Shown piece after piece: positions 29,951 through 45,714 of a stretch of DNA of 45,714 nt. This DNA comes from Armatimonadota bacterium. GTDB taxonomy: Bacteria > Armatimonadota > Fimbriimonadia > Fimbriimonadales > Fimbriimonadaceae. Where the stretch lies: the NCBI GenBank assembly GCA_025360125.1, contig JANYCU010000054.1, positions 1 to 45,714 of the forward strand, written 5' to 3'. The notes below the pieces were generated by a model. It was given only the letters and a program-made list of their open reading frames with translations. It had not been told where the DNA came from and made no database searches. Numbering within the stretch: the first letter of the stretch is position 1; every line of letters begins with the position of its first letter. The translations under genes were made by a program, and so were the position numbers.

Positions 29951-30517
29951 TTATCGAAAGACAACGCCGAAGCCGGTCCAGTGCATTTGGGGGAGTTCGA
30001 GTTTGTTTTCCTCTAAGCTATCCCACCAGGCAGACATACCTGGGTTGATTCGGATGTCATCGAAGAAGATGAGTCCGCCAGGACGGACGAGGGGACCAAA
30101 CAGGGCCAATTCTACAGTTACTTGCTCAGCGGTATGGTCGGTGTCGATGAAGAGAAGATCGATTGGGCCACGTTTGGCGACTTCAGCAGCAAGCGCAGGG
30201 TCTCGAGTGTCGCCTTGCCGGAGTTCGATGTTGTCGAATGCGAGGAGGCGGTTTGTGGCATCGGGCCGTATTTCGATGTCAATGGAAAGGACTTTGCCCC
30301 CTGTGCCAGCCGCGAAATGAGAAGTGCTTCCGCCCGTACACGTGCCAAGTTCGACGACTAGGTTTGGTTGACGTTCCTTGGCGACAGAGTAGAGGAGGTT
30401 GTAGTATGGGTTCGAGCCGTCGAATCCGAAACTTCGAGGGTCAGGGCACTGTGAAGGATTCTCAAACTGGCGGAGAAATTCCTTTCCTCGATCGCTCATT
30501 GTTGTCACAGACTTCAT
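29951..30517 (-). CDS. Class I SAM-dependent methyltransferase
   Basis: This 188-aa protein has the glycine loop VVELGTCTGGSTSHFAAG (motif I) and acidic KVLSIDIE at the end of strand 2. Motif IV is PIDLLFIDTDHTAEQV, and motif V is LVRPGGLIFFDDI. The DTDHT and FFDDI residues resemble the O-methyltransferase/cephalosporin hydroxylase group that binds a divalent metal. The substrate is unknown. It starts at ATG 30517, although ATG 30499 is nearly as good; neither has a clear ribosome-binding site. Confidence 0.85.
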   Translation of the reverse strand: MKSVTTMSDRGKEFLRQFENPSQCPDPRSFGFDGSNPYYNLLYSVAKERQPNLVVELGTCTGGSTSHFAAGTGGKVLSIDIEIRPDATNRLLAFDNIELRQGDTRDPALAAEVAKRGPIDLLFIDTDHTAEQVTVELALFGPLVRPGGLIFFDDIRINPGMSAWWDSLEENKLELPQMHWTGFGVVFR

Positions 30518-30683
30518 CGATTTTGTTCATCGCCACAGTATTTCAGGGTTAACTCTCAGATTCGCAGGGGTCGCTAACCGTGCCACCAGGTTTAGACTAT
30601 CATTACTCAAAAACTACCCCGCTCACGCCAGAGACTTGTCGCTCACAGCATTGGTTGGCCAACTTTGAAACGTCAAAACTGAG

Positions 30684-30845
30684 CTATCTAGCTAAATTAT
30701 TAACAAAAATCTGGAATAGTGTAAATATAACGTATACCACCCAAAACCCAATCAATAATTTAGTCAAGTTCGGTTTGCCTTTATTCTTGTAGTAAATCCA
30801 CAGACTTAGTAAAACCCAAATTAGTAGCGTAGTAATTATCCACAT
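30684..30845 (-). CDS. 53-aa two-helix membrane protein, candidate RHS-associated immunity protein
   Basis: An ATG at 30845 opens a 53-codon frame ending TAG at 30684, 16 bp after the RHS C-terminal frame and on the same strand. It encodes two hydrophobic segments, IITTLLIWVLLSLWIYY and LLIGFWVVYVIFTLFQIFV, joined by the basic turn KNKGKPNLTK. Codon use is AT-rich like the RHS tip. RHS-type toxins are normally followed at once by a small immunity gene, so I infer that role. The ribosome-binding site is weak, and a chance frame cannot be excluded. Confidence 0.45.
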   Translation of the reverse strand: MWIITTLLIWVLLSLWIYYKNKGKPNLTKLLIGFWVVYVIFTLFQIFVNNLAR

Positions 30846-30861
30846 AGTTCAATTAACCAGT

Positions 30862-31662
30862 TCAGAGAGCATCCCTAACATTATTTTTTAAGATACCGTT
30901 GGCTTCCGCCAAACAAGTAAAATATATACCGTCGCAATCGTTACGCCATTGCTCGCGCAATTCGTTGCATGCATTTAGACACAGAAGTTCAACCCCAGCA
31001 AAGTATGCCACGCATCCACTAATACATAAAAAGATTAAAGGAGGCGCTTCAATAAGTAAATTGCATCGAGCAGTGCAAATTGCTAAACCAGCCACCGCAG
31101 ATTTGTTGCACACATCTCGACAAAAAGTATAATCATGTTCTCTTGCATCCCTACATTCATCTAGCGCGTCCTTGCAAGTTGGTGCCGGCTGAGGCGGTAA
31201 CTTCGGTTTTTGCTTAGGCTTCCCCTTCGGATCGAATTGTGGTCCGAATACTTGCCCCGGATTTGACGATCCACCACAAACCATACCTGTTGGATCGATA
31301 AATAGTACTGGTAACCCACGAACATAATCATATGCAAGTTCACGGGGCCACAATGGATCAACGTTCAACCATCTTGCGAATTTCGTCATCAAGTACCTGG
31401 CCCGAACATAGAGCATCGTGGCTGAATCAATTAGATAACCGAGCAATCCAACGTAGCCCCATGAACTTGGGTTTGTACCCGTCGAAGTTTGCAATTCGCC
31501 ATAGGGCCAATACTGTGCATCATACGTTTTCGTCCCCGAGGAATTCCTCGATTGAACAAGACTCCCGAGCGAATCGGACACATATTCCGTCTCAACCCCG
31601 CCTCGATCCTCGTGAACCAACATGCCGTTGATCGTGGTAAAAGATGTTACAACTGTTGCCAT
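30862..31662 (-). CDS. RHS-repeat core end and cysteine-rich C-terminal tip
   Basis: This 266-aa frame continues the RHS protein after a break in frame. Residues ~1-125 hold the end of the RHS cage: YVSDSLGSLVQSRN, ARYLMTKFARWLNVDPLWPR (the RYYDP-like core) and YVRGLPVLFIDPTG. After the PTG boundary come a Pro/Lys linker and a tip with 12 Cys in a regular pattern: Cx6C, four CxxxC pairs (CRDVC, CTARC, CISGC, CLNAC) and Cx6C. In RHS systems the region after this boundary is the variable toxin or effector. The ATG overlaps the upstream stop as TAATG, so translation may be coupled, or it may be a frameshifted remnant. Confidence 0.75.
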   Translation of the reverse strand: MATVVTSFTTINGMLVHEDRGGVETEYVSDSLGSLVQSRNSSGTKTYDAQYWPYGELQTSTGTNPSSWGYVGLLGYLIDSATMLYVRARYLMTKFARWLNVDPLWPRELAYDYVRGLPVLFIDPTGMVCGGSSNPGQVFGPQFDPKGKPKQKPKLPPQPAPTCKDALDECRDAREHDYTFCRDVCNKSAVAGLAICTARCNLLIEAPPLIFLCISGCVAYFAGVELLCLNACNELREQWRNDCDGIYFTCLAEANGILKNNVRDAL

Positions 31663-33338
31663 TAGCTAGTCTGCTCCTGAAGGTAGTCCGTTTTGTCCCA
31701 AATGTAAGTTGTCAGTTTGCCTACCGCTTGTTTCGTCCGTCGAAGGCCATTGCCAGCATACGTCATGGTTGATAGTACGCCAACATCGTTTAGGACGTTT
31801 AGCCTATTCTCCCGATCGTAACTATAGGTACTGAAAACTCCACCTCGATTTTCCAACGTCAAATTTCCGTTGCCGTCGTAGGTCTGAGTAACCATTGTTG
31901 GTCCGTCTTGAATCGTCGTTATTCGACTCGCTGCATCGTATGTCATTGTGATCGGTTGACCGCCTTGATGCCATTTAGTCAGAACGTTTCCAACCGAGTC
32001 CATCGTGAAAGTTGCAAACGCGCCTGCCTTTTGTTGGCCAGTCAGGCGATTAATATCGTCGTACGTATAAGTGGTTGGATCCCCATCTCGGACTTGCTTG
32101 GTCTTTCGCCCCACCGCATCATAGGTGTCCACAATTGTCATGATTGGGACACTTGTCGCGTCAAGTTCAACTTCCTGATTGACTCTGCCTACTGCGTCAA
32201 AGGTCTGTACTTTAGTTCTGCCGAAACCCATGCTTAACGTGGTCATTTGACTGTTTGCATCGTAGGCGCAGGTGTAGATTCGATTCTTAGGATTGCTTTG
32301 GCTTTTGAGACGATTATCAGCATCATAAGTGTATGTGTACCGTCCACCGCTTGGGTCAACCATCAAGGATCGATGACTCACCGCATCGTATTGATAGGTT
32401 ATCATTTGGCTGCTCGGTAGGGTCACTCCTGAAAGTTCGTTTCGATTGGTGAACGCATAAGTAGTTATTCCGCCAGAATCCTGCATCTGGGTTGGATTGC
32501 CAACCGAATCGTACGCAAGGGTAACAAACGTACCGTCGCCATATTGAGTCAACGTCTGACGGTTTGCCGCGTCGTAGGTCATCGTCTTTGACCAGCCATT
32601 GGCGTCGAGCAGATTAATCGCTCTACCGTCGGCGTCAAACGTTGTGGTTGCAATCCCACCAATCTCATTCTGGACCGTAATTTGCCGACCAGCATTGTCA
32701 TAGGTTTTCGTGATGAAATTCCCACGAGCATCTTGGGACGCAATAATTTGTCCGGCGACATTATAGATGAAGCTGTAAACAAAGCCGAAAGCATCCATTT
32801 TCGATGAAACTCGGTTTGAGGTTGTTTGATAGGTTGTTGTCGAGACATGGTAGAGCGCGTCTTGGACACTAACTTGGGCACTATTCGGATTGTAAGACAA
32901 TGTGGTGCGGTTACCGAGCGGATCGACAACCGCGATCACTTGGTTCGCAACGTCGTAGACAGTCGTATTGATGAAGCCCATCGGCGATGTCGAGGCGGTT
33001 CGCCGACTGATCGTGTCAAAAGTCTGAGTGGTTCGGTTTCCGAGTGCATCTTGCGAGGCGACGGCATCACGTGCGTCATAAATGGTCGTGGTTCGGTTTC
33101 CAAGAGCATCTTGGACTGCGTTCGGACGTCCTGAGGTGTCGTAAGCATAACTGGTGAAATAACCGAGAGTATCTTGGCGGGCGATGAGCTGCTTAGCCGC
33201 GTTGTAGACCATCGTATTGATCCTGCCGAGCGGGTCGGTGCTCGCCGTTTGGTAGCCCGCGTTGTCGTAAGTTTGGGTCCAGATATTATCCAGCGGGTCT
33301 TGGGTTGTGAGCACGTTGCTGAACCGACCGAAAGTCAT
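31662..33338 (-). CDS. RHS/YD-repeat protein, 5'-truncated fragment
   Basis: More than 20 YD repeats fill this frame (for example YDNAGYQTASTDPLGRINTM, TYDAANRQTLTQYGDGT, YSYDRENRLNVLNDVG), forming the shell of an RHS/Tc-toxin-like cage. It ends with TYIWDKTDYLQEQTS, where RHS proteins normally continue into the core, and the next frame supplies that continuation. The N-terminal secretion and plug domains are absent. The frame stays open to 33563, but that part is the RAYT element's left repeat and coding end, so I start at ATG 33338. It is most likely a remnant cut by the RAYT element. Confidence 0.75.
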   Translation of the reverse strand: MTFGRFSNVLTTQDPLDNIWTQTYDNAGYQTASTDPLGRINTMVYNAAKQLIARQDTLGYFTSYAYDTSGRPNAVQDALGNRTTTIYDARDAVASQDALGNRTTQTFDTISRRTASTSPMGFINTTVYDVANQVIAVVDPLGNRTTLSYNPNSAQVSVQDALYHVSTTTYQTTSNRVSSKMDAFGFVYSFIYNVAGQIIASQDARGNFITKTYDNAGRQITVQNEIGGIATTTFDADGRAINLLDANGWSKTMTYDAANRQTLTQYGDGTFVTLAYDSVGNPTQMQDSGGITTYAFTNRNELSGVTLPSSQMITYQYDAVSHRSLMVDPSGGRYTYTYDADNRLKSQSNPKNRIYTCAYDANSQMTTLSMGFGRTKVQTFDAVGRVNQEVELDATSVPIMTIVDTYDAVGRKTKQVRDGDPTTYTYDDINRLTGQQKAGAFATFTMDSVGNVLTKWHQGGQPITMTYDAASRITTIQDGPTMVTQTYDGNGNLTLENRGGVFSTYSYDRENRLNVLNDVGVLSTMTYAGNGLRRTKQAVGKLTTYIWDKTDYLQEQTS

Positions 33339-33397
33339 CGTCGTTCGGAAGCCCAGCGGCGAGCCACTGCGTGGGCGGGGTAAAAAGTGTGCTTGGG

Positions 33398-33449
33398 GGT
33401 GGCCTGTATAAGCGACCATGTGCGAAGCTCCGAGCTTATGCAGGGACAA
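33398..33449 (-). repeat. REP, left flank of RAYT element (inverted relative to right flank)
   Basis: This 52-bp sequence has its right-hand partner at 34043-34094 in inverted orientation; 44 of 52 positions are identical. It can fold with the stem ATAAGC / GCTTAT around a loop holding the AGCTTCGCA core. Four of the eight differences from the right copy fall in this stem and preserve pairing. Confidence 0.85.
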
Positions 33450-33487
33450 ACGACGAGTTGGTGCCACACTGCCATTGTAACACGCCT

Positions 33488-33997
33488 TTACTCTAGGCTG
33501 GCATAGTGTCGACATTTGACCGCACCTTCCTCTTCTGTGAAGTACCAGTTGGCCGAAGACCAAAAGTAATCGACGGAGGATTCCACAAGATTCTTGACCA
33601 CGGCATTTTGGTGAATGTATGTAATGGCGTTCTTTCGGGCCTTTGGCGTGAAGATGTTTCGATCATAGCCCCCTCCAACTTCCCACAGGTCGCTTGGTAT
33701 CCATCCCCGGGACTTGGCCCTGTTTGATACGCCTTGTTTTATTGCCTTAGCGATGACCTCCATCGAGTAGATCTCGTCGAGAGGATGGATGAGCAGGTGA
33801 ATATGGTCGGGCATGAACACATAGGCGAGAATGACGAAGTTGTGCTTAAGGGCGGCTTTGTTAATGCGATCGGCAAGCGCCTGGCAGACCCGCTCGTCCT
33901 TAAGGAACGGTTTTCTGCAGTCAGTAGAGGTTGTGTAGTAGTGAGAATGTCCAGGCGTGTTGCGGAACTTGCGCTTGATTTTTCCTGGTGGTTTCAC
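33488..33997 (-). CDS. REP-associated tyrosine transposase (RAYT), Y1/HUH family
   Basis: This 169-aa protein belongs to the IS200/IS605-related Y1 transposases. The HUH metal-binding motif is His-Ile-His in FMPDHIHLLIHP (near 65-76). The catalytic Tyr lies in the following helix, with NAITYIHQNAVVKNLVE and SSVDYFWSSANWY near the C-terminus being characteristic of RAYTs. The protein cuts single-stranded DNA at REP hairpins. REP-like repeats occur immediately on both sides. The start is ATG 33997. Confidence 0.92.
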   Translation of the reverse strand: MKPPGKIKRKFRNTPGHSHYYTTSTDCRKPFLKDERVCQALADRINKAALKHNFVILAYVFMPDHIHLLIHPLDEIYSMEVIAKAIKQGVSNRAKSRGWIPSDLWEVGGGYDRNIFTPKARKNAITYIHQNAVVKNLVESSVDYFWSSANWYFTEEEGAVKCRHYASLE

Positions 33998-34042
33998 ATT
34001 TGGATTTTTACCTCAGAGCGAGGGCACCCTGTGATTGTTATG

Positions 34043-34094
34043 TTGTCCCTGCTTAACCTTGCAGCTTCGCAGATGGGCGGTTAAACAGGCCACC
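34043..34094 (+). repeat. REP, right flank of RAYT element
   Basis: TTGTCCCTGC, then the stem TTAACC / GGTTAA around a loop with AGCTTCGCAG, then ACAGGCCACC. It is the inverted partner of 33398-33449. The stem bases differ from the left copy in compensating pairs. Confidence 0.85.
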
Positions 34095-34139
34095 CCTTAC
34101 TTAATATTTCTACCCAGCTCCCGCAAGTGGCTCACCCCT

Positions 34140-34622
34140 TCATTGCTGTTCAAGCATCTTAATTTGGTTTCGGACGTACCAGAGGGGGACTATTCCAACC
34201 ACGCCAAATGAGCAATCGATCAGCCGCCAGCCAAAGGGAATTCCCCTGATGGGCCCTGCGATCAAGGCTAAAAATGGCACCGCAATACAGGCGATCATGC
34301 CCCATTCGATGATCCATTTATTGCGCACCGGATCTTTGAGGGGACCGATGAATGCGGAGGCGATGACAAGGTGTCCGAATGCGAGCCAGTCGGTTCCGTA
34401 AGCAATGAAAGGATATTTGGCGTCGGTTTCGACGAGACCTGTTTGAACTGTCCTGAGCCAGGATGCCAGCATGCCGTCGCCCTGGCCAAAGTTACGAACG
34501 AGGACTCCGAGTTCCCACGTGAGCGGGAACGCAGTAATGCCCGAAAGAGCAAGGCCAACGATGAATCCGACGATCAAGATGCGGATTCGCTTGAGTCTGG
34601 CGGCATCGCTTATTTCAGCCAT
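34140..34622 (-). CDS. Multi-pass membrane protein, unknown
   Basis: This 160-aa protein has about four transmembrane helices: RILIVGFIVGLALSGITAF, FGHLVIASAFIGPL, WGMIACIAVPFLALIAGPI and CSFGVVGIVPLWYV. The N-terminus is charged (MAEISDAARLKRIR), and loops such as KDPVRNKW fit the cytoplasmic side. No family is recognised with confidence. Its start lies 13 bp inside the DinB-family gene, so the two are translated together. Confidence 0.7.
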   Translation of the reverse strand: MAEISDAARLKRIRILIVGFIVGLALSGITAFPLTWELGVLVRNFGQGDGMLASWLRTVQTGLVETDAKYPFIAYGTDWLAFGHLVIASAFIGPLKDPVRNKWIIEWGMIACIAVPFLALIAGPIRGIPFGWRLIDCSFGVVGIVPLWYVRNQIKMLEQQ

Positions 34623-35083
34623 GTTGATGGTACATGAAACTCGTGATCTCCGTTGAGAATCTGAATGAAATTGATTTGACCGGAATGATAGGCCATGTTT
34701 CGGTATGCGCCCATCAGGAGGATATTGCCCGTTAGAGGTCCTCGGCTCCAGTGCATGAACTCCTGATCCAGCGCGGAGTCGGCGGTTTGTTTGATGGCAT
34801 CAGCGAGAACGTTGGCCGAGGCCATGATCTCGTCTCGGGCATCTTCAGAATCGGTGAACGTTTGAATAGCGGGCTGGCCGGGAGTTCCCCCGTTCAGCAG
34901 CGCCGCAAAATAGCGGTTTGCGGATGCGCATTCGGCGACCATTTCGAGAACCGACCGTGCGGGGATGTCGCTCTTGGTGGGAAGATTTTGGCTTAAAAGC
35001 TCGGGGTCGGTGCTGGCGATGAAATGAGCCATCGATAAGCCCATTCGCTCAACGTGCTCGGCCATAAATGCTTGCGCGGTCAT
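34610..35083 (-). CDS. DinB-family protein
   Basis: This 157-aa four-helix-bundle protein of the DinB/YfiT superfamily has the metal-binding pattern His-x3-Asp/Asn-like in HVERMGLSMAHFI and the characteristic end NMAYHSGQINFIQIL. Family members are often thiol-dependent S-transferases or have unknown function. It overlaps the next gene downstream by 13 bp, forming a two-gene unit. Confidence 0.85.
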   Translation of the reverse strand: MTAQAFMAEHVERMGLSMAHFIASTDPELLSQNLPTKSDIPARSVLEMVAECASANRYFAALLNGGTPGQPAIQTFTDSEDARDEIMASANVLADAIKQTADSALDQEFMHWSRGPLTGNILLMGAYRNMAYHSGQINFIQILNGDHEFHVPSTWLK

Positions 35084-35092
35084 GGCTTCAGT

Positions 35093-35386
35093 TTAGCGTT
35101 TTCGTCGCCATCCCATGCTAAAAGCGAATAGCCAAATTGCCAATACGCCAATAACAAGTCCTAGACCGCAAAAAAGTGGGAGCATCCACACGATGCTAGG
35201 GTCATTCGTGATTTCGCCGTGAGGACCATGAGGACCCTCGGCGAGGATTTGCGCGCCCCCGCAAGTGCAGCTTAACGCCGCCATCGCGAAGAGTGCGACT
35301 GACGCTCCGCATCCGAGCCAATTCTTACCCGGAGTTGGCGACGGCTCGCTGCGCGGATACTCGGCGACAACGGACGGCTCGTTCAT
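35093..35386 (-). CDS. Membrane protein with two helices
   Basis: From the ATG at 35386 this is a 97-aa protein with helix 1 (LGCGASVALFAMAALSCTCG), a polar loop (GPHGPHGEITNDPS), and helix 2 (MLPLFCGLGLVIGVLAIWLF), ending in a basic tail (RRKR). The start I use avoids a longer frame that overlaps the gene upstream. That gene ends at 35394, only 7 bp before this start, so the pair is probably co-transcribed. No family is recognised. Confidence 0.6.
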   Translation of the reverse strand: MNEPSVVAEYPRSEPSPTPGKNWLGCGASVALFAMAALSCTCGGAQILAEGPHGPHGEITNDPSIVWMLPLFCGLGLVIGVLAIWLFAFSMGWRRKR

Positions 35387-35393
35387 AGATCGG

Positions 35394-35666
35394 CTACCGG
35401 ACTTCCCGCCGCATCTTGGCACCCCACACCAAGCAAAAAATTCCTGCACAGATCAGCAACGTTCCGGGCGAATAACAAAAGAACAAACCGAGTAGGGTTC
35501 GTCCTTCAGCTTCCATAGTAATCAAACTCGCGAATCCAATGAGTGGTATGCCTAACAGAATCGTTACTATTGAACACCCAATATTCACCCCCCGGTGAAG
35601 GAATGAACTTCTGATGTCGTTGCGAATTTCACTGAGGTCAGTATCGATGTGGGGCAGTTTGCCCAT
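35394..35666 (-). CDS. Small membrane protein, 90 aa
   Basis: Two transmembrane helices are seen (IGCSIVTILLGIPLIGFASL and GLFFCYSPGTLLICAGIFCL), with a charged N-terminus of about 25 residues (DTDLSEIRNDIRSSF) and a basic C-terminus (KMRREVR), both likely cytoplasmic. It shares the unit with the gene at 35093 and is preceded 10 bp upstream by the 52-aa gene. It looks like a member of the many small hypothetical membrane proteins of this phylum. Confidence 0.6.
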   Translation of the reverse strand: MGKLPHIDTDLSEIRNDIRSSFLHRGVNIGCSIVTILLGIPLIGFASLITMEAEGRTLLGLFFCYSPGTLLICAGIFCLVWGAKMRREVR

Positions 35667-35676
35667 GAAGGAATCC

Positions 35677-35835
35677 TTAGATCTTCGGTCGGTACGATTT
35701 GCCGGTTACGGCACCGTGCATCGTTTTGGCGGCTTGGTTTTTGCCACCTGTTGCTACCGTTTTATCATCAGGACCTTTTGGCCCTCTCAGCTCTTCGAGT
35801 GCTTTCTTGATTTCAGCTTTACTTTTGCGTTGCAT
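35677..35835 (-). CDS. Small basic protein, 52 aa
   Basis: ATG 35835 is preceded by a good GAGGT site five bases upstream, giving MQRKSKAEIKKALEELRGPK. The longer frame to 35859 adds a start with no ribosome-binding site. The product is a charged helix followed by a Gly/Lys-rich tail (TGGKNQAAKTMHGAVTGKSY), probably nucleic-acid- or protein-binding, but no function is known. It is the first of three small genes in one run. Confidence 0.6.
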   Translation of the reverse strand: MQRKSKAEIKKALEELRGPKGPDDKTVATGGKNQAAKTMHGAVTGKSYRPKI

Positions 35836-35938
35836 GGTGACCTCTTTTTCAGTATACAAGAGGTCTTCGTTGTTTCCTTGAGGCTCAATTTGAATTCATC
35901 GGTCGAAAAATGGCCCCGATCAACTAAAATAAGAGCAT

Positions 35939-36352
35939 ATGAAGTCTTGGATTCTTCTTGGTTCGGCGGCTTTAGTGGCGGTTGCCGTGGCCCAGTTGAC
36001 CGTTTCCCAGGTGACGGGTGATTGGGAAGGTGACTCAAAATGCGTGAACCTTAACGCGATGCCTGGTTGTAAGGATGAGCATGTCGTCTATCATATTATT
36101 CCGATCCATAGGAACTCGAATCAGGTGCTGATCAATGCAGACAGAGTGGTCGACAAAAAGCCAATCTCAATGGGAGAAATCCTCTTCACAATCGATGGAA
36201 AAGGATCGGCGATCAACAACGAAATGATGATCAACGGCAGCAAACACTATTGGAACTTTGTCATCAAGGGCGACAAGATGACGGGCACCCTGAAGAATAA
36301 GGACAAGGTTGTGCTCCGCCAGATCACGCTGAAGGCCCAGAAGAAAGCTTAG
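35939..36352 (+). CDS. Hypothetical exported protein, 137 aa
   Basis: The signal peptide (MKSWILLGSAALVAVAVAQ) is clear. The mature part is beta-rich, with two Cys (SKCVNLNAMPGCKDEH) that could form a disulfide, and repeated strands such as HVVYHIIPIHRN and FTIDGKGSAINNEMMING. It overlaps the convergent pirin gene by 4 bp. No family is recognised; the shape suggests a small secreted beta protein. Confidence 0.65.
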   Translation: MKSWILLGSAALVAVAVAQLTVSQVTGDWEGDSKCVNLNAMPGCKDEHVVYHIIPIHRNSNQVLINADRVVDKKPISMGEILFTIDGKGSAINNEMMINGSKHYWNFVIKGDKMTGTLKNKDKVVLRQITLKAQKKA

Positions 36353-37179
36353 GTTGCAAACGTCTCGGCGTGGATCATGTCGGTGGTTTCTTTGATGTCG
36401 TCGACGGTGTTCATCACGAATGAACGGTACTGGACGATTGGCTCGTGCAGGGGCTTTGCCGAGACATAGAACACTCGGGCACCTTGGGGTCCGGCGGTTA
36501 GCGAAACGTAATCTCCATCGCCAAAAACGATCTGTTCGGGCGCGCTGACGGTTCGCCTCGTCGTCGTCACTTTGCCGCGGATCACGTAGGCAAAAGTGGC
36601 ATGGCCGTGATCGGCGGGAATCTCAAGGGTGGCGTTGTCGTGAAGGGTGATGTCGAGTATCGTCGGATTTACCGCGATTCCTTTGAATATCCCTTCGGTT
36701 CCTTCGAATGAACCAGCGACGATTCGGACGACGGCGCTCGCCTTCGTTACTTCGGGAACCTCTTCGGCTGGTCCACCTTGGTAGGCTGCTGGAATCCGCT
36801 TTTTGTTACGCGGAAGGCTGAACCACAGCTGGAGCATTTCGGCACCTTCGGGGCCTGGTTTCATCATCTCTTCGTGCCAAATGCCGTTTCCGGCGGTCAT
36901 CCATTGAGTGCCGCCGGGGCCGACGATGCCTTCGTTTCCGTTGGAGTCTTTGTGTCCGACTTCGCCGGAGATGACATAGCTGACGGTTTCGATTCCACGG
37001 TGGGGGTGGCGAGGGAAACCGACGATGTCGGATTCGGCGGAGATCGACGCGTGGTCGAGGAGCATGATTGGGTCGAGGATCGCCATCCGCTCCCCACCGA
37101 TCACTCGGTTAATCGTTACCCCTTTGGCTTCTTCAACCTTGGTAGGAGCGTAAAAAATGGCAGCTAGCGACTCAATCAT
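36349..37179 (-). CDS. Pirin-family protein
   Basis: This 276-aa bicupin has the metal site of pirins: His58 and His60 (FPRHPHRGIETVSY), His102 and Glu104 (NGIWHEEMM). Pirins are iron-binding proteins; some act as quercetin dioxygenases, others as redox-sensing transcription cofactors. The first cupin is well kept, and the second (from ~165) is more diverged, as usual. The protein is cytoplasmic. It is a single gene, its upstream side filled by a hairpin array. Confidence 0.9.
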   Translation of the reverse strand: MIESLAAIFYAPTKVEEAKGVTINRVIGGERMAILDPIMLLDHASISAESDIVGFPRHPHRGIETVSYVISGEVGHKDSNGNEGIVGPGGTQWMTAGNGIWHEEMMKPGPEGAEMLQLWFSLPRNKKRIPAAYQGGPAEEVPEVTKASAVVRIVAGSFEGTEGIFKGIAVNPTILDITLHDNATLEIPADHGHATFAYVIRGKVTTTRRTVSAPEQIVFGDGDYVSLTAGPQGARVFYVSAKPLHEPIVQYRSFVMNTVDDIKETTDMIHAETFAT

Positions 37180-37251
37180 AAGCCAATTCTACGCCGCTTG
37201 TTGGGAGGATTTTGTATCGACAAGTACATGGTTCAAATTTTGGTGGGCCCT

Positions 37252-37365
37252 TTGGAGTGCGCGGACTTGTCCGCGCATTGGCCTGCGAAGCTTGCTTCGC
37301 TGCTAATCACCATCGCAGCGAGACAAGTCTCGCAGTTGAAAGCGCCAACAAGTTGGCGCACTCCA
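37252..37365. repeat. Hairpin array with ACTTGT/ACAAGT loops and terminal inverted repeats
   Basis: The ends TGGAGTGCGC (37253) and GCGCACTCCA (to 37365) are perfect inverted repeats. Inside are four stems: GCGCGG-ACTTGT-CCGCGC, GCGAAG-CTTG-CTTCGC, GCGAG-ACAAGT-CTCGC and GCGCCA-ACAAGT-TGGCGC. Three share the same 6-base loop, read on one strand or the other. This is a REP-type or MITE-like unit between pirin and the DAHP synthase gene. Confidence 0.8.
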
Positions 37366-37373
37366 CATTGCGA

Positions 37374-38411
37374 CTAATTGACCGCTGCCGCTAATTGCTC
37401 CAACAATCCAACCGTGTCCTCGAACGAGATGCAGGCGTCGGTGACGCTCTGGCCGTAAACCATGTTATCGGAGATGTTTTGCTTGCCTTCGATGAGGTTG
37501 CTCTCGATCATTACGCCCATGATGCCGTGGTTTCCGGCCGCCATTTGCTTGCAGATGTCGGCGATAACGACGCTTTGGTTTCGGTGGTCTTTGTTGCTGT
37601 TGCCGTGGCTGCAGTCGATCATCACCTTCGCGGGAAGGTCATGCTTCTTGAGCATTTCAACTGCTTCTTGAACGTGCGGCATTCCGTAGTTCGCCCCAGT
37701 TTGGGTTCCACCGCGAAGGATGATGTGGCAATCCTCGTTTCCGCGGGTTTTGAAGAGTGAGGAGACGCCTTGCTTGGTAATTGATGGGAACCAGTGCGAT
37801 TGTCCGGCGGCGATAACGGCTTCGACGGCGCGCAGAACGTTGCCTTCGGTGGTGTTTTTGAAACCGACGGGCATCGAGAGGCCGCTTGCGAGTTCTCGGT
37901 GCACTTGGCTTTCGGTTGTTCGGGCACCAATTGCGACCCAACTGGTGATGTCGGCGACGTGCTGAGGAATTTGAAGGTCAAGGAATTCTGATCCGGTCGG
38001 GAGGCCCAGTTCGTTGATCTCGATCAGGAGCTTTCGCGCGCCGCGCAAGCCTTTGTTGATGTGGTAGCTCTCGTTCAAATCAGGGTCGTTGATGTACCCT
38101 TTCCATCCAACGCTGGTTCGCGGTTTTTCGAAATAGGCGCGCATGACGATGACGAGTTTGCTTTCGAGACGCTTGGCTACGGGTGCGAGCTTTCGGGCGT
38201 ATTCGAGCGCACCTATAGGGTCATGAACCGAACACGGTCCGACGACGACGACGAGGCGAGGGTCGCGGCCGTGGAGAACTTCGGAGATTGCGTGTCGAGC
38301 TTTGTCCACCACTTCGGACACTTCGTCGGAGAGGGGATGCTCCTCGTGCAGGATCGCCGGCGGAATCATTGGCCGGGCATCGGTAATTCGTAAGTCGTCC
38401 GTTAAGCGCAT
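37374..38411 (-). CDS. aroG: 3-deoxy-7-phosphoheptulonate (DAHP) synthase, type I
   Basis: This catalyses the first shikimate step: phosphoenolpyruvate plus erythrose 4-phosphate to DAHP. From the ATG at 38411 it gives 345 aa, normal for AroF/G/H, beginning MRLTDDLRITDARPMIPPAI. Key segments are VVVVGPCSVHDP, RAYFEKPRTSVGWKGYINDP, ATGAR-like AIGARTTESQVHRELASGLS, and DCSHGNSNKDHRNQ with metal-binding His/Glu. The frame remains open upstream to 38636 but lacks similarity and a ribosome site. It is a single gene; feedback residues for Phe, Tyr or Trp cannot be assigned from the sequence alone. Confidence 0.95.
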   Translation of the reverse strand: MRLTDDLRITDARPMIPPAILHEEHPLSDEVSEVVDKARHAISEVLHGRDPRLVVVVGPCSVHDPIGALEYARKLAPVAKRLESKLVIVMRAYFEKPRTSVGWKGYINDPDLNESYHINKGLRGARKLLIEINELGLPTGSEFLDLQIPQHVADITSWVAIGARTTESQVHRELASGLSMPVGFKNTTEGNVLRAVEAVIAAGQSHWFPSITKQGVSSLFKTRGNEDCHIILRGGTQTGANYGMPHVQEAVEMLKKHDLPAKVMIDCSHGNSNKDHRNQSVVIADICKQMAAGNHGIMGVMIESNLIEGKQNISDNMVYGQSVTDACISFEDTVGLLEQLAAAVN

Positions 38412-38813
38412 GGGGGTTGGATTTGCGCGGACGGCGTTGTTCGCTGTTGTTAGTATATCTTGCTTCGCTAGGGTGCCTCGCAGGGCATGCTTCGCAGGGG
38501 CAATGAGCATAAACTCAAACTTGCTCAATCTACTCCCACGGTTCGCCTGACTAGAACCACCTTTATTCAGAAGAGCAGGTTCACCGATCCCTCTTTTCAA
38601 AAAGGGATATCTCGCTTGGGACAGACAGGGATGCAATTCTTCTGGTTCTGATGGCGAAGGATGCGAGCGATGGGATCGAGCCTATCCAGACGCCGAAAAT
38701 CATCACAAATCTTTAATTGAACCTGCGGGAAAAGGACGTTTGAACTCGGACGGATAACCTGTGGAAAAGGATGCGCATAAAATGGGACAAATCGTGGTAA
38801 AAATAGTACTGTA
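38412..38813. other. Intergenic region upstream of nrdR
   Basis: No gene is evident. The left half contains GC-rich, CGAAGC-containing words (GCATGCTTCGCAGGGGC) like those in the REPs elsewhere. There is also a short palindrome, ATCCCTC-TTTTCAAAAA-GGGAT. The right half becomes more AT-rich toward the nrdR promoter. Confidence 0.5.
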
Positions 38814-38861
38814 CATCTATGGGTTGTGGTGGCATAATCATACAGCCCCTATATGTAGTGG
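38814..38861 (+). promoter_or_regulatory. Paired candidate NrdR boxes upstream of nrdR-nrdJ
   Basis: CCCCTATATGTAGTGG (38846-38861) matches the NrdR-box consensus ACACTATATGTAGTGT at 13 of 16 positions. A weaker site, CATCTATGGGTTGTGG (38814-38829), lies exactly 32 bp upstream, three helical turns. Paired boxes are the standard arrangement for NrdR repression. The regulator would be the product of the next gene, so the operon probably represses itself when dATP is high. Confidence 0.65.
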
Positions 38862-38877
38862 TGAAACGACCAATAAT

Positions 38878-39375
38878 ATGCTCTGTCCATTCTGCGGAAA
38901 TGATGACTTAAAGGTACTGGATTCACGTCCAGGGCCGGATGGTGAGTCGATTCGGCGAAGGAGAGAATGTGTGAAGTGCGTCAAGCGATTTACTACATGG
39001 GAGCGGTTCGAACGAGCTCGACTTTTCGTCATTAAACGCGACGGAAGCCGATGCGACTTCAACCGGGAGAAGGTCTTCGACTCCATGCGCCTTGCCTGTG
39101 GCAAACGACCCGTTTCGGTCGAAACGATGGCTCAGGCAGCAAGCCGCATTGAAGACGAACTTTACGCAAAATTCGACGACGAGGTCAGCACAAAGCAGAT
39201 CGGCATGAGTGTCATGCGCGAACTGGCTTCGATTGACACCGTAGCCTACGTCCGTTTCGCATCGGTCTATCAAGAATTTGAAACCGTTGCGGACTTCGCC
39301 GAGATGGTTGAACGAGTGCAGACCGAAGAAGCCCTCACGCCATTTAGGCACCTACAAAAAGAACTTATATCATAA
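38878..39375 (+). CDS. nrdR: Transcriptional repressor NrdR
   Basis: NrdR represses ribonucleotide reductase genes when ATP/dATP signals enough dNTP. From ATG 38878 it is 165 aa. It has a zinc ribbon MLCPFCGNDDLKVLDSRP with the second Cys pair in RRRRECVKCVKRFTTWER, then an ATP-cone domain (VIKRDGSRCDFNREKVFDSM, CGKRPVSVETMAQAASRIE). The longer frame from 38761 lies across the candidate boxes and has no similarity. The gene is 24 bp ahead of nrdJ and most likely co-transcribed. Confidence 0.95.
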   Translation: MLCPFCGNDDLKVLDSRPGPDGESIRRRRECVKCVKRFTTWERFERARLFVIKRDGSRCDFNREKVFDSMRLACGKRPVSVETMAQAASRIEDELYAKFDDEVSTKQIGMSVMRELASIDTVAYVRFASVYQEFETVADFAEMVERVQTEEALTPFRHLQKELIS

Positions 39376-39399
39376 CAAAAGGGGAACTCAGGAAGAGAA

Positions 39400-42300
39400 A
39401 TGAAAATTCGACGCTACTTTACACAATCAGGGAAGAACCCTTACGCCGGAATCGATTTCGAGGCGCGTAAGAGTGAAATTCGCAACCCAGACGGCTCCAC
39501 CGTTTTCTTGATGGAAAACGTCATGGTTCCGTCGCAGTGGAGCCAGGTTGCCACCGACATTCTTGCGCAGAAGTATTTCCGCAAGGCCGGACTAACGCCG
39601 GGCAAAATCGGCGGAGCCGACTACAGTCCGATGAACGAAGAGTTCATTACACCGTCGGAAACGCGAGAAAGCGACTCCCGCCAAGTCTTCCACCGACTCG
39701 CAGGATGTTGGCGACACTGGGGCGAAGAGTTCGGCTACTTCGATTCTAAAGAAGATGCGTCGGCGTTTTACGATGAATTGGTCTACATGCTCGCCAAGCA
39801 GGTCTCCGCACCAAATTCCCCACAATGGTTTAACACTGGTCTTCACTTTGCCTACAACATCACCGGCTCCCCGCAGGGCCACTACTATGTTGACCCTAAG
39901 ACATCCCAACTCAGCCTTTCGAAAAACGCCTACGAGCGACCCCAGCCTCACGCGTGCTTCATCCTGAGCGTCAAAGATGATCTCGTCAACGAAGGCGGGA
40001 TCATGGACCTTTGGACTCGGGAAGCCCGAATCTTTAAATATGGTTCTGGCGTCGGCACCAACTTCTCCCAGATCCGCGGCGAAACGGAAAAATTGAGCGG
40101 CGGCGGACGATCGTCCGGTCTCATGAGCTTCCTCCGCGTTGGCGACCGAAGCGCAGGCGCGATCAAATCGGGTGGCACTACCCGACGGGCGGCCAAGATG
40201 GTCTGCCTAGACATCAACCACCCTGATATCGAGGAATTCATCAACTGGAAAGTGAAAGAAGAGCAGAAAGTTGCCTCGTTGGTGACCGGATCGAAGCTCA
40301 ATCAGCGACACATCAACAACGTGATGAAGGCTGCCTATGTGGATGGCACGGTCAACGCTAACCCTCGATCGAACCGCGCGCTCTGGACCGCGATTGCCGA
40401 AGCGAAGATGGACGAGATTCCGACGAACTACATTCAGCGAGCGATCCAGTTTGCCGAGCAAGGGTTTACGAGCATCGACTTCCCTACGTACGACACGGGC
40501 TATGAGTCCGAGGCGTACCTGACGGTTTCCGGTCAGAACTCGAACAACTCGATCCGGGTCAGCAACGAGTTCTTTAAGGCAGTCGAAGAGGACGCCCAAT
40601 GGGACCTTACGGCGCGAACCACGGGCAAGACTTTGAAGTCGATTTCGGCGAAAGGACTTTGGAACGACCTGTGCGAAGCCGCATGGAACTGCGCCGACCC
40701 CGGCCTGCAGTACGATACGACGATCAACGAGTGGCACACTTGCCCAGCCAACGGACGGATCAATGCTTCGAACCCATGTTCTGAGTACATGTTCCTCGAC
40801 GACACGGCTTGCAATCTCGCGTCGATCAACCTCGCCCAGCTTTACAGCCAAGAAACCGGAGTCTTCGACCTCGAAGGCTATACCCACGCGATCAACGTCT
40901 GGACGATGGTCCTCGAAATCTCGGTCTTGATGGCTCAGTTCCCGAGCAAGGAAATTGCTCAGCTCAGCTACGACTTCCGAACCCTCGGACTCGGATACGC
41001 CAACCTCGGCGCGCTTTTGATGCAGATGGGTTACGCCTACGACAGTCCAGACGGACTGGCGATTGCGGGTGCGCTCACGAGCATTCTCGGCGGCGAATCG
41101 TACGCTACCAGCGCCGAAATGGCCAAGCAGCACGGCCCGTTTGCGAAGTACCACGCCAACCGCGATCACATGCTTCGCGTTATCCGAAACCACCGACGAG
41201 CAGCTTATAACGCCTCGGCCGACGAGTATGAAGGATTGTCGATTTTGCCCGTCGGAATTGATCAAGAAGTTTGCCCGGCAAACATGCTTAAGGCCGCCCA
41301 CAAGGCGTGGGATCGAGCGCTGGAGATTGGCGAGCGGCAAGGCTTCCGCAATGCGCAGACGACGGTTTTGGCTCCGACCGGAACCATTGGCCTGATCATG
41401 GATTGCGACACGACCGGAATTGAGCCAGACTTCGCGCTGGTGAAGTTCAAGAAGCTTTCGGGTGGCGGCTACTTCAAGATCATCAACCAGAGCATTCCTC
41501 CTTCCCTCAAGAAATTGGGCTACTCGCAAGAGCAGATCGAGGACATTATTGGCTATGCAACGGGTTACAAGACCTTGGCGACTGCGCCTCACATCAATCA
41601 CGTTTCGTTGAAAGCCAAGGGCTTTACCGACGAGATTTTGATGACGATCGAGAAGGCGCTGGAGTCGGCTTTCGAGCTGAAGTTTGTTTTCAATAAGTTC
41701 AACGTTGATGAGCAATTCTGTATCAATACGCTCGGAATCAGTGCGGATGAATTGAACGATTGGTCGTTCGATATGCTGACGCATCTTGGCTTTACTCGGG
41801 ATCAAATTGAGTCAGCGAATGAGTACGTTTGCGGTTCGATGACGGTCGAGGGCGCCCCGCACCTTAAGGACGAGCACCTTCCGATTTTTGACTGCGCCAA
41901 CAAGTGCGGCAAGAAGGGCAAGCGATTTATCCTTGCCGCTGGGCATATCCGCATGATGGGTGCGGCTCAGCCGTTCCTTTCGGGGGCGATCAGCAAGACA
42001 ATCAACCTTCCGTCCGAGGCATCGGTTCAGGAAGTTCACGACGCCTATTGGATGTCGTGGAAGCTTGGCCTCAAGGCTAACGCGCTTTACCGAGACGGCT
42101 CGAAGCTTAGCCAACCGTTGAGCTCGTCAAGCAGCGACGCGGCCGCGGCGATTTTGGAAGCTTCGCTTGATTTTGACATGGAGCCAGTTGCCGCTTCGGC
42201 TTCTTCAGCTCCAGCTAATCGGGAAATGATTGGCGAGGAGTTGCCATTGGTTACGGCTTCACAGCACGATGAGATTGAGCGAATGGCGACCAAGCTCGTC

Positions 42301-43224
42301 TACCGCTACATCAGTAAGCGACGCGTTATGCCCGGCCGACGCCGAGGCTATACCCAAAAGGCGCGAGTGGGCGGACACAAGATCTACCTGCGAACCGGCG
42401 AATTCGAGGACGGCACTCTCGGCGAGATCTTCGTCGATATGCACCGCGAAGGCGCGGCGTTCCGATCGCTGATGAACTGCTTTGCGATTGCGATCTCGCT
42501 TGGTTTGCAGTATGGAGTTCCGCTTGAAGAGTTTGTCGAAGCGTTCGTTTTCACTCGATTCGAGCCAAACGGAATGGTCAATGGTCACGACAACATCAAG
42601 ATGTCGACCTCGGTCATCGACTACATCTTCCGCGAACTTGCGATGTCCTACCTCGGACGCAATGAGCTCGTGCAAGTCAAGCCAGAAGACCTTCGCAACG
42701 ACACGGTGGGATCGCCTGACCAGGCGCCCGACTTTGACGACGAAGAGGAAATGCACGATCTGGACGACCAGGAAGTCGCACCGGGCTTTGCATCGATCGA
42801 CCACTCTTCAAAGGGCTATGGGGCTAATCGAGAGCAGATAGCGCTCCCTTTTGATGGGACGCCGGAGGCGTTGGGGTCTCCGACCGAGTCTCTGACTCGG
42901 AACCAGCAAGGCACTCCGGCTCAGTTTGAAGAGCGAATGGTCAGCGGCAACGGCGCGAACGGCGTGGCCCTGATGGAAGTCGCGGCTCGCGAACTCGTCG
43001 ACCGGGCTTACTTGGCACCATCGGCGAAGGCTCCGGAAGTAAAGGATGCTCCGAAGGTTAAAACTGCGCCGAAGGTTGAGTCTGAGCACTCGGAAAAGAT
43101 CCGAGTGGCGAAACTTCAGGGATACGAAGGCGACCCATGCGGCAACTGCGGAGCGTTTACGCTGGTGCGGAACGGCGTGTGTCTGAAGTGCCAGAGCTGC
43201 GGGGAGACCAGCGGGTGCTCTTAG
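39400..43224 (+). CDS. nrdJ: Vitamin B12-dependent (class II) ribonucleotide reductase
   Basis: This enzyme reduces ribonucleotides to deoxyribonucleotides using adenosylcobalamin. The 1274-aa protein is of the long NrdJ type. It begins with [13 protein letters not shown], and has [16 protein letters not shown], the active-site region [35 protein letters not shown] and the loop [19 protein letters not shown]. The C-terminal tail has six Cys ([21 protein letters not shown]) that pass electrons to the active site and resemble a zinc ribbon. AGGA precedes the ATG at 39400. The RT gene begins 10 bp later, with its ribosome site over this stop. Confidence 0.97.
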
Positions 43225-43234
43225 GAAGTTTTAG

Positions 43235-44794
43235 ATGATTACGGAATCAGCCTGGTTGACAACTCAGGAAGATTTGGCAAAGGCCAAGCACATAGGAGCA
43301 TCGCCGGCTGGACGAGTTATATCCACCTTAAAATTCGATGATCTTGAAACGATGGAACTCCTAAATTGGTCGGCCAATTCGGGGCAGACTTCAAGATTTA
43401 TAAATTTGCCAAAGCATGCTGCCTGTAATAACAGTGGTATAAGCTGCAAATGCCGTTACTATCATTTGCCAGCCATCCATACCCATGTCAAAATAAACCA
43501 AATCAGTGAAGAGCTTCACCATATCTTTGAAGAGCTAGTGATTCAATGCCAAAGTGAAAAGGAAGTTTTCAACGCCAAAATTGGATTTGGTTCTAATGGC
43601 TCGATTGCAAGACTTTACTATACAAGTGATTTTACTGGCTGGCTAAATCGATCTAAGGACCTTTATAACGAAGGGTATCAGTTCGTTGCAAAACTAGATA
43701 TTAAGAACTTCTTCCCAAACCTAACAAGCACTTTTTTCGAGGGCCTTTTCTCAAAATTGCCCTGTTTAATTCCGCAGAGCTTGCAACTGGACTTAGTTTT
43801 ACTTCTGACAGAAATCAGAAAGGGATTGCCTATAAGTTGCACTGGCTCACAATTCTTGGCAAGATTGGCACTCATTCCACTCGATTTGGCATTGCGCGCC
43901 CATGATGTTAAATTTGTTCGATATCAAGATGATCTCTGGATTCATTGCCGGTCAGACAATGATATGAATACCTCGTTCGCATTAGCGAATCGAGTTTTAA
44001 CCTCCATTGGGCTATCTTGCACAGATTATAAAACGGAGCTACTTAGACCTGAAAGATCCCGATTCTTGCGTCATGGGCTAATGCCAAATCATACGCCATT
44101 AGAGCATTTCTTTAGATTTGATCAAGACGAGGATAAGTTTTCGCAAGACTCTCCAGACGAGGGAAAGGATAACAGTAAAGACGGAGGTTACAATGATAAT
44201 GGAAGTAGTTTGAATCGGAAGAAACTATTTACGATTGACAATCCAAACCTTTACAGAGACTATCTGGCGCCGGGACGAACCAATCGCTCCCAATCCATAC
44301 AGAAGTTTGTGTTCGCTAATGCCCGTCAGTTTGATGTGCCAGTCTCAAATGAATCTTACGATGACGCAGGCGACATCTTGAGGTTACGACCCGCTGATCT
44401 CAATGCGATCGTTGAGAACTTCCCAGATAGCCAAGTCTTTAGTGAATTCAATGAGCAAATCATGGATTTGCAACATCCAGCTAAAGAAGGATTCATCCTC
44501 GAATATGTTGGCGCAATGAGACAAGGAATTAGGCAGAAGACGTGGGATAGGCTTGAGGATCAAGTGTCGAAAGATCAGTCTTTAGCCACATTGGTACTTT
44601 TCAGAAGTCAAGCTGGTGTCATCAAAATCAACCGTGAAAGATTTGAATCCACCAGATCTTCGTCAATTCATCATGTAGCATCCGATGCCCAGTATCTTTT
44701 ACGTCAAGATGACAATAAGGATGCGATTGCGTTGCTCAAAGACGGTCATGCAGTCGGCGGTTTGGTAGTTGAGACGCTTGAGTCAATGCTTTAG
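43235..44794 (+). CDS. Reverse transcriptase of the unknown-group/defence type, coupled to nrdJ
   Basis: This 519-aa protein has the RT palm motifs. Motif A is Asp155 (VAKLDIKNFFPN), the RT4 segment is GLPISCTGSQFLARLALIPL (197-216), motif C is Tyr-Gln-Asp-Asp (230-233 in KFVRYQDDLWIH), and motif D is a KTE (Lys266) in TDYKTELL. Residues 295-330 form an acidic, low-complexity linker, and the last ~160 residues look like helical repeats, as in Abi and UG RTs. No HNH or maturase domain is visible. The ribosome site AGGAAG (43223-43228) overlaps the nrdJ stop, so it is expressed from the same message. Its base and codon use is visibly more AT-rich than nrdJ, suggesting acquisition. The exact RT class cannot be set without a tree. 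Confidence 0.85.
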   Translation: MITESAWLTTQEDLAKAKHIGASPAGRVISTLKFDDLETMELLNWSANSGQTSRFINLPKHAACNNSGISCKCRYYHLPAIHTHVKINQISEELHHIFEELVIQCQSEKEVFNAKIGFGSNGSIARLYYTSDFTGWLNRSKDLYNEGYQFVAKLDIKNFFPNLTSTFFEGLFSKLPCLIPQSLQLDLVLLLTEIRKGLPISCTGSQFLARLALIPLDLALRAHDVKFVRYQDDLWIHCRSDNDMNTSFALANRVLTSIGLSCTDYKTELLRPERSRFLRHGLMPNHTPLEHFFRFDQDEDKFSQDSPDEGKDNSKDGGYNDNGSSLNRKKLFTIDNPNLYRDYLAPGRTNRSQSIQKFVFANARQFDVPVSNESYDDAGDILRLRPADLNAIVENFPDSQVFSEFNEQIMDLQHPAKEGFILEYVGAMRQGIRQKTWDRLEDQVSKDQSLATLVLFRSQAGVIKINRERFESTRSSSIHHVASDAQYLLRQDDNKDAIALLKDGHAVGGLVVETLESML

Positions 44795-44829
44795 ATCGAT
44801 CGCCCACTTCGTGGCAGGACCACTGTCAT

Positions 44830-44875
44830 AGCATGCTTAGCCGACCACCTGCGAAGCTGAGAGTCTAAGCATGCT
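44830..44875 (+). repeat. 11-bp inverted repeat with GCGAAGCT loop downstream of RT
   Basis: AGCATGCTTAG (44830-44840) and CTAAGCATGCT (44865-44875) pair perfectly around a 24-base loop containing CCTGCGAAGCTGAG. A related sequence, GCGAAGTTGGGAGTCTAAGC on the minus strand, is found at 45225-45256. The hairpin may end the RT transcript, be a REP, or be an RNA partner of the RT. Confidence 0.75.
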
Positions 44876-44978
44876 TCTAATCGCAGAGATACATGCTTTA
44901 CTTCAGCAAAAAGGAACAAAGCCATCAAATGTTGATGAATTGCAATGCCGCATTCGTACAGTTCGACTTTGGTCAGGC

Positions 44979-45188
44979 CTACTGTTTTGAGAAGATCAGT
45001 TGGACCATCGTCTCATATGTTACAGGCGAAGTGCCGTTAGCTGAATTGCCCTCAATTAGTCCAACATAGGTATATCCGCCAGCCTGCGCTTTGGTAAAAG
45101 CATCCTGAACTTTAGTGTGGAAAGTTACATTAGGAGTAGGCGATACATTCTTCGGTACCTCAATAATCAAATATGTCGGACTCGTCAT
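44979..45188 (-). CDS. Hypothetical small protein, 69 aa
   Basis: The frame gives MTSPTYLIIEVPKNVSPTPN, then VTFHTKVQDAFTKAQAGGYT and a strand-rich end (PVTYETMVQLIFSKQ). I start at ATG 45188; the frame also opens at GTG 45194. It is a soluble, strand-helix protein of unknown role. It lies between two inverted copies of the CGAAGCT-type hairpin repeat. No family is recognised. Confidence 0.5.
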   Translation of the reverse strand: MTSPTYLIIEVPKNVSPTPNVTFHTKVQDAFTKAQAGGYTYVGLIEGNSANGTSPVTYETMVQLIFSKQ

Positions 45189-45194
45189 GGGCAC

Positions 45195-45415
45195 ATTCTA
45201 CCATCTGGGCAGAACCACTAGCGTTGCATGCTTAGACTCCCAACTTCGCAGGCATCGGCAAACCACTGACGTGGGCGGGGATATCTTGTGTGGCACTTGC
45301 TCCGACCCCTTCGTCGAACGGAGTGACGTCCCGATGCGCTGGAAGCTTTCGGGACGTCGCCGAGACGAAGTTGGAGAAGCCAGTGTTTGATTCATCCTTA
45401 GCGCATAGGTTCTTG
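45195..45415. other. Intergenic region with palindromes
   Basis: There is no gene. It holds the inverted relative of the hairpin at 44830 (45225-45256) and a 10-bp inverted repeat, GACGTCCCGA / TCGGGACGTC (45325-45334, 45349-45358), that can form a strong hairpin. The sequence then leads into the three-hairpin repeat. Confidence 0.6.
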
Positions 45416-45512
45416 AATTGAGGCGAACTTTCAGCTCGCAAAGACTTCCAATTCCTGTCCCAGAGCTTCGCACTGGGCTAATTTGAACGAGCCCTTCAGG
45501 CTCAAAGAATTG
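45416..45512 (+). repeat. Three-hairpin dispersed repeat, copy 2
   Basis: This matches 3711-3806 along its whole length (AATTGAGGCGAAC at the start, AGAATTG at the end). The stems are CTTT / AAAG, CCCAGAGC-TTC-GCACTGGG and GAGCC-CTTCA-GGCTC. The first and third differ from copy 1 with pairing kept. Confidence 0.75.
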
Positions 45513-45515
45513 GAC

Positions 45516-45713
45516 TTAATTCTTCCGGAAGATTTTCGAGAGGAATCCGCCCTGCTTGGTCGAAGTTGAAGAGGTTTCTCCGCTATCTAGTCGGTAAGTC
45601 GCATTGCCGAGTCGCCAAAAGACGATTAGGTTGTCGTAGACAAACAGAGTGGGTTCTAGTCCGTGCTCCGCGCATTTGGTTCGAACTTCATCCAGATCGA
45701 AAACATTGTCGAA
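45516..45713 (-). CDS. Hypothetical protein, C-terminal part (5' end outside window)
   Basis: An open frame enters from the right edge and ends TAA at 45516-45518, giving 65 residues. The sequence FDNVFDLDEVRTKCAEHGLE followed by TLFVYDNLIVFWRLGNATYR is a helix followed by strands, with a basic Ser/Thr-rich tail (FLSKIFRKN). The stop lies just beyond the repeat at 45416-45512. Family and function cannot be judged from the fragment. Confidence 0.65.
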   Translation of the reverse strand, partial: FDNVFDLDEVRTKCAEHGLEPTLFVYDNLIVFWRLGNATYRLDSGETSSTSTKQGGFLSKIFRKN

Positions 45714-45714
45714 C

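Follow-up and report, generated by a model that had tools for sequence, protein, structure and literature searches.

The window, by which we mean the whole stretch of DNA analysed, is 45,714 nucleotides long and makes up one whole contig (JANYCU010000054.1) of a bacterium of the Fimbriimonadaceae (Armatimonadota). In it nrdR lies directly upstream of nrdJ, the gene for a class II ribonucleotide reductase, and nrdJ is followed by a frame of 519 amino acids with an ATG start that encodes a reverse transcriptase (RT); the contig ends 920 nt past the RT gene, so that the downstream side is only partly visible (Table 1). The upstream synteny of a DAHP synthase gene and nrdJ is common to the window and a related genome (G002; G, C and L numbers denote genomes, contigs and loci), whose downstream side differs. 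The RT gene begins 10 nt after nrdJ, with a spacer of 6 nt between AGGAAG and the ATG at 43235, and no promoter- or terminator-like site was found on the + strand between the two genes. A first-pass annotation of this DNA had already described the spacing and the overlap of AGGAAG with the nrdJ stop, both of which are plainly read in the sequence, and had placed nrdR upstream, which its Pfam domains confirm; of the two NrdR boxes proposed at the same time, one was recovered as a weak match and the second was not found.

Table 1. Features of the nrdR-nrdJ-RT locus and the remainder of the contig (positions in the window)
Feature	Position	Strand	Basis or remark
Weak candidate NrdR box	38846..38861	-	3 mismatches to consensus; chance mean 0.68 per window
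nrdR, Zn ribbon and ATP cone repressor	38878..39375	+	Pfam Zn_ribbon_NrdR 2e-21, ATP-cone 3e-20
nrdJ, class II (B12-dependent) ribonucleotide reductase, C-terminal Cys-rich tail	39400..43224	+	NCBIfam NF005736/PRK07562, 1918 bits, full length
nrdJ 3' end, apparent recurrent insertion point	43129..43224	+	equivalent ~96 nt duplicated in G134, ~56 nt in G030
GGGTG in last nrdJ codons	43213..43217	+	enriched in cargo-bearing nrdJ genes
AGGAAG, predicted ribosome-binding site	43223..43228	+	overlaps nrdJ stop TAG (43222-43224)
Divergent RT, probable cargo gene	43235..44794	+	519 aa; RT profiles and alignment
Catalytic Asp155 codon (LDIKNFFP)	43697..43699	+	invariant alignment column
Catalytic YQDD (residues 230-233)	43922..43933	+	Y, D, D invariant in alignment
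Acidic low-complexity linker and ~190-aa C-terminal part	44129..44791	+	outside RT profile matches
Dispersed REP/MITE-like repeat (CATGCTTAG..CTAAGCATG)	44814..44878	+	43 genome matches, copies aligned; not cargo-specific
Same repeat, second inverted copy	45226..45252	-	genome repeat matches
Open-ended ORF at contig end	45516..45713	-	weak match in G002, 2.5 kb past nrdJ (36% over 41 aa, E 5e-4)

The repeat just past the RT gene was considered as a cassette site and rejected as dispersed, and a 70-nt repeat of G136 and G035 was rejected likewise. This dispersed REP/MITE-like repeat (GTGGCATGCTTAGCCGACC..GAGAGTCTAAGCATG), the one at 44814-44878 and 45226-45252, is also found at 33402-33442 and 34050-34090 of the window, and several of its genome copies lie near contig starts. 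The frame open at the contig end possibly marks a return of synteny with G002, going by a weak match. Farther upstream, an RHS/YD-repeat-like protein is split over two ORFs of 266 and 633 aa (30862-33563, - strand).

The reverse transcriptase and its class

The 519-aa frame is a real reverse transcriptase with its RT residues intact: D155, G197, P199, R229, Y230, D232 and D233 are invariant in an alignment with seven other RTs, and the block 'GLPISCTGSQFLARLALIPLD' and KTE, 3' of YQDD, align as well, in agreement with the residues picked out in the first-pass annotation. RVT_1 matches it with an E value of 1e-6 and 29.1 bits, just below the Pfam cut-off of 29.6, and at E ≤ 1 it is hit by 74 PADLOC profiles. 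RT profiles cover only residues ~130-285, the best of them stopping at residues 257-303; the N- and C-terminal parts matched no profile, and a search for a relative of the C-terminal part found none. The gene looks acquired, as had been suggested from its AT-rich composition: its GC content is 0.425 and its GC3 0.415, as compared to 0.519 ± 0.023 and 0.586 for 22 other genes of the window.

The highest PADLOC scores are those of UG21 (66 bits), Drt8 (60) and Drt9 (46). The UG21 match is confined to residues 134-277, and other RTs of the phylum, of group II type or fused to Cas1, score 80-121 bits against this profile, above the window RT. Because only the RT domain matches, with scores far below those of full-length members (385 bits for UG21, 361 for UG19), the RT is not a member of UG21, DRT8 or another PADLOC DRT group. 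The best PDB match is a DRT9 polymerase entry (E 3e-6). In DRT9 a noncoding RNA lies upstream of the RT gene and two conserved tyrosines of the C-terminal tail serve as primers (PMC12483538); the 10 nt between nrdJ and the RT gene leave no space for a noncoding RNA upstream, and the last 30 residues of the protein, ending in LVVETLESML, include no tyrosine. The likeness to DRT9 is thus one of analogy, and DRT9 membership is rejected.

Retrons and group II introns were rejected in turn. Retron St85 scores 38 bits against a cut-off of 235, and the group II maturase profile TIGR04416 scores 41 bits against a cut-off of 300; no Rfam match was obtained, and the first-pass annotation proved right that there is no upstream space for an msr-msd RNA and no maturase domain. 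A DGR-like 'GLPI...SQ' resemblance is seen by eye, and the nearest rows of the RT tree carry the motif; no template/variable repeat pair was found within 30000-45714, on a contig that ends 920 nt past the RT. The placement among UG/DRT, Abi, retron, DGR and group II RTs that had been called for came to nothing, as the RT sits on a branch of 3.7 changes per column and its position in the tree is meaningless; an AlphaFold2 model from the single sequence (pLDDT 32) was set aside. Searches of 291 genomes of the phylum and of plasmid and phage sets found no close relative, and neither did pattern-based scans of GTDB and IMG/VR; these scans depend on an exact match to a short peptide, so that more distant relatives could have escaped them. 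By its sequence the RT appears to lie outside the UG/DRT, retron, DGR and group II classes known so far and would represent an unclassified lineage, among the most isolated prokaryotic RTs in the collections searched. In having a long additional C-terminal part and standing as a single gene, it is more like the UG/Abi enzymes than the RTs of introns or retrons.

Genes adjoining nrdJ in related genomes

While nrdJ is present in 20 of 20 genomes of the genus, the RT gene stands behind it in the window genome alone, and no second case was found in the 291 genomes of the phylum. In several Fimbriimonadaceae relatives, unrelated single genes on the same strand adjoin the nrdJ stop. Among them are a DUF4062 gene whose ATG overlaps that stop (TGATG, G018), a 415-aa gene joined through TAATG that is a singleton in the phylum (G015), a TIR-like/nucleoside deoxyribosyltransferase-like gene (G009), a TIR_2 gene (G128), a Fic gene (G134), and genes without a family match in G025, G032, G035, G126, G135 and G156; orphan cargo ranges from 122 to 575 aa, and joins such as TGATG and TAATG are tighter than that between nrdJ and the RT gene. 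Looser cases of similar flavour involve PIN_8 (G007), HNH (G001), Mrr about 750 nt on (G011) and a VapBC-like pair (G017). By eye only, a HEPN motif was read in G015 and a PD-(D/E)xK motif in G032. Most cargo genes, the RT gene included, are lower in GC than their surroundings, and the content downstream of nrdJ is variable even at loci without an abutting gene. A defence hotspot at a core gene is recognised by varied defence-type cargo at a single conserved position in related genomes, and the nrdJ loci bear this mark.

Of the 64 nrdJ loci in Fimbriimonadaceae, 15 bear cargo when counted by hand. At DAHP synthase, which served as the control gene, orphan defence-type cargo was found in none of 40 family genomes, the abutting genes being conserved among relatives or, by their look, of ordinary metabolism or signalling. 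Outside the family, cargo follows nrdJ at 1 of ~93 loci: the single case is an HNH gene in a genome of the same order (G042), so that the count is 1 of 20 for these loci of the phylum and 0 of ~73 for other phyla, where neighbours are conserved (e.g., RidA in SAR116). Fisher tests on these two comparisons gave p = 3e-4 and 5e-6, respectively, values that depend on a hand-picked cargo set. A mechanical rule (an ORF of at least 100 aa starting between -5 and +30) selects 24 of 64 loci, evident false ORFs included, at a random-window rate of 22%. The motif GGGTG is found in the nrdJ tail at 14 of 15 cargo loci vs 10 of 49 others (Fisher p 5e-7, kinship of the genomes being ignored), and, with the same proviso, the association is significant both within the genus and outside it. 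Either the tail arrived with the cargo, or GGG is the ribosome site of the coupled gene.

The HNH cargo was examined as an nrdJ-specific family and rejected: of six further copies at other places, five abut genes other than nrdJ, and no duplicated tails accompany them. By names assigned by eye, HNH relatives adjoin the 3' ends of rho-like, HsdS-like, YqeG-like, TPM-like and alcohol dehydrogenase genes (L290, L291, L292, L294 and L295), often with stop-start overlap. Since they adjoin rho-like and alcohol dehydrogenase genes too, nrdJ is not the sole address of HNH-type cargo; orphan genes of these bacteria may commonly live next to a stop codon, and nrdJ would be one of their favoured addresses.

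Other observations at nrdJ concern its surroundings and its coding frame. A gene resembling, by eye, a RAYT/REP transposase lies downstream of nrdJ in G002, G018, G009 and G036 (L081, L082, L099, L103). nrdJ reading frames of 1575-1708 aa in which the match is interrupted (G007:C1:4207770-4212782, and in G152, G153 and G159) suggest inteins, and G036 has stand-alone ORFs of ~245 aa homologous to the C-terminal TSCPD region of NrdJ (G036:C11:6263-6670, G036:C20:371-814), apart from its full nrdJ.

Displaced nrdJ tails and a probable route of insertion

In two genomes nrdJ is followed by cargo, then by a copy of its own 3' end, then by a further gene. The order in G134 is nrdJ, the Fic gene, a 96-nt nrdJ 3' copy (89 of 96 nt identical, with an in-frame stop) and, about 30 nt on, a 467-aa gene; in G030 it is nrdJ, a gene for a 177-aa lipoprotein-like product, a 56-nt nrdJ 3' copy with its stop, and a 567-aa gene. 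In a set of loci that did not include G134, a scan with a weight matrix of nrdJ tails found no further tail copies, and none is visible in the 920 nt between the RT gene and the contig end. Each duplicated interval holds one cargo gene and no recombinase, the G030 cassette measuring ~0.68 kb. The sole relative of the 567-aa gene among the 291 genomes is the 575-aa gene of G025, a member of a different genus, in which it stands directly behind nrdJ; this cargo family thus has two members in the phylum, each directly after an nrdJ tail. From the position of the G025 relative, G030 probably once had the order nrdJ and 567-aa gene, the lipoprotein-like gene having come later. The copies begin at differing positions of nrdJ (-96 in G134, -56 in G030), so a fixed att core was rejected; the pattern suggests instead that recombination used the homology within nrdJ and that the far end was joined illegitimately. 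On this sequence evidence, we take the displaced tails to be the footprint of repeated insertion at the nrdJ 3' end.

We consider it likely, taking the explanation as a whole, that the nrdJ 3' end is a recurrent insertion site in Fimbriimonadaceae and that the RT gene is its present occupant. Single genes, often of defence type and apparently promoterless, would insert directly after the nrdJ stop codon, and each re-insertion would push older cargo downstream along with a copy of the nrdJ tail. The probable route is homologous recombination in the conserved nrdJ 3' end with an illegitimate join at the opposite end, though a recombinase supplied in trans could also be responsible. Cargo would then be expressed as the last gene of nrdR-nrdJ, through transcriptional read-through and re-initiation at the coupled stop and start. 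Judged by sequence, the RT gene is best taken as AT-rich, probably promoterless cargo of this kind. By analogy, its product would most likely be an immune polymerase of DRT/Abi-like type that makes DNA on infection; a defence role, which the first-pass annotation had raised as an idea, is likely from the company of defence-like cargo at the same site.

Alternatively, one could envision a classical integrative element, with a tyrosine or serine integrase and the nrdJ 3' end as attB, that carried the RT gene as cargo and whose integrase has been lost or lies past the contig end. Such elements commonly attach at the 3' end of a conserved gene, nrdJ tail copies lie downstream in G030 and G134, and a phage tyrosine integrase gene is found ~5.3 kb downstream of nrdJ in G015 (L084:5446-6642), past an M48-peptidase-like gene shared with G001. 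However, the two tail copies do not start at one core, and the short duplicated intervals consist of a single cargo gene with no integrase, so we judge such an element fairly unlikely. Ordinary drift, in which nrdJ merely ends its operon and any gene may follow at no special site, would suit the variable downstream content at loci without abutting genes and the orphan HNH genes next to other host genes, but it does not account for the duplicated tails, for a cargo family seen only behind nrdJ tails or for the zero count at the control gene, and we think it unlikely.

The first-pass annotation had instead suggested that a consumer of dNTPs is coupled to their producer. The RT would then have been recruited behind nrdJ through a need for, or sensing of, dNTPs, as in DRT9, which is triggered when a phage ribonucleotide reductase raises dATP; DRT9 escape mutations map to phage nrdA/nrdB, i.e., to that enzyme (PMC12483538). 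The tight join with its overlapping ribosome site is in keeping with this idea, as is DRT9 being the best PDB match, but the match to Drt9 covers no more than the RT domain, a noncoding RNA upstream would have no space, and the pair occurs in one genome only; its absence from relatives had been named beforehand as refuting the idea, and it is absent from all congeners and from the rest of the phylum. Because relatives have Fic, TIR and DUF4062 genes, as well as orphan genes, in this slot, position behind nrdJ is by itself no argument for dNTP sensing. We regard this coupling as quite improbable; what ties the RT to nrdJ is probably its place and the expression gained there, not the supply of dNTPs. 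Chance landing of an RT from a retron, DGR or group II-like element, for which the low group II and retron scores and the DGR-like motif could be cited, is very improbable given that no repeat pair was found within 30000-45714 and that maturase, Rfam match, msr-msd space and any full-length family match are missing.

Comparison with known systems and significance

The RT is like the UG/Abi and DRT enzymes, of which UG21, DRT8 and DRT9 are nearest by profile, in its palm motifs (D..YxDD), its length of about 500 aa, its single gene, its non-RT C-terminal part and its AT-rich, acquired DNA; it differs in matching them over the RT domain only, with at most 66 bits as compared to 360-385 for true members, and from DRT9 also in its lack of upstream noncoding RNA space and of the C-terminal tyrosine pair. 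As to the site, Rhs/CDI toxin loci carry displaced orphan modules, older modules moved downstream behind a copy of the 3' end of the host gene. The displaced nrdJ tails are alike, but here the host is a metabolic enzyme whose protein is unchanged and the cargo is a separate gene. Integrative elements that insert into the 3' end of a conserved gene, such as a tRNA gene or, for SCC, rlmH, keep the frame and form tandem arrays. The nrdJ site shares both traits; its cassettes, by contrast, are without a recombinase, and no fixed core was seen. In the core defence hotspots of E. coli (PMC10121019) and P. aeruginosa (PMC10250203), variable defence cargo lies beside a conserved core gene, as at nrdJ, and cDHS1 of P. 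aeruginosa has no obvious tie to one class of mobile element (PMC10250203). At nrdJ, by contrast, single genes are joined to the stop codon and apparently co-expressed with the host gene. The main texts of both reports make no mention of nrd genes or ribonucleotide reductase, and in our literature search no paper connected nrdJ with either RTs or defence sites. As a cargo site, the nrdJ 3' end is new and well supported.

A bolder version, in which the nrdJ 3' end is a dedicated address where Fimbriimonadaceae exchange promoterless single-gene immune effectors that carry their own tail copies and are expressed in step with dNTP synthesis, with the RT as founding member of a novel immune RT class at this address, is offered tentatively, as a possibility that we ourselves doubt. 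Regardless of that version, a comparative reading now replaces the account of an RT and a ribonucleotide reductase in one genome: the stop codon of a conserved metabolic gene would be the landing and expression site for unrelated defence-like genes, with no visible mobility genes. The displaced nrdJ tail copies make this insertion process directly testable and, if it is confirmed, new immune genes could be found behind nrdJ, where several cargo genes match no known family.
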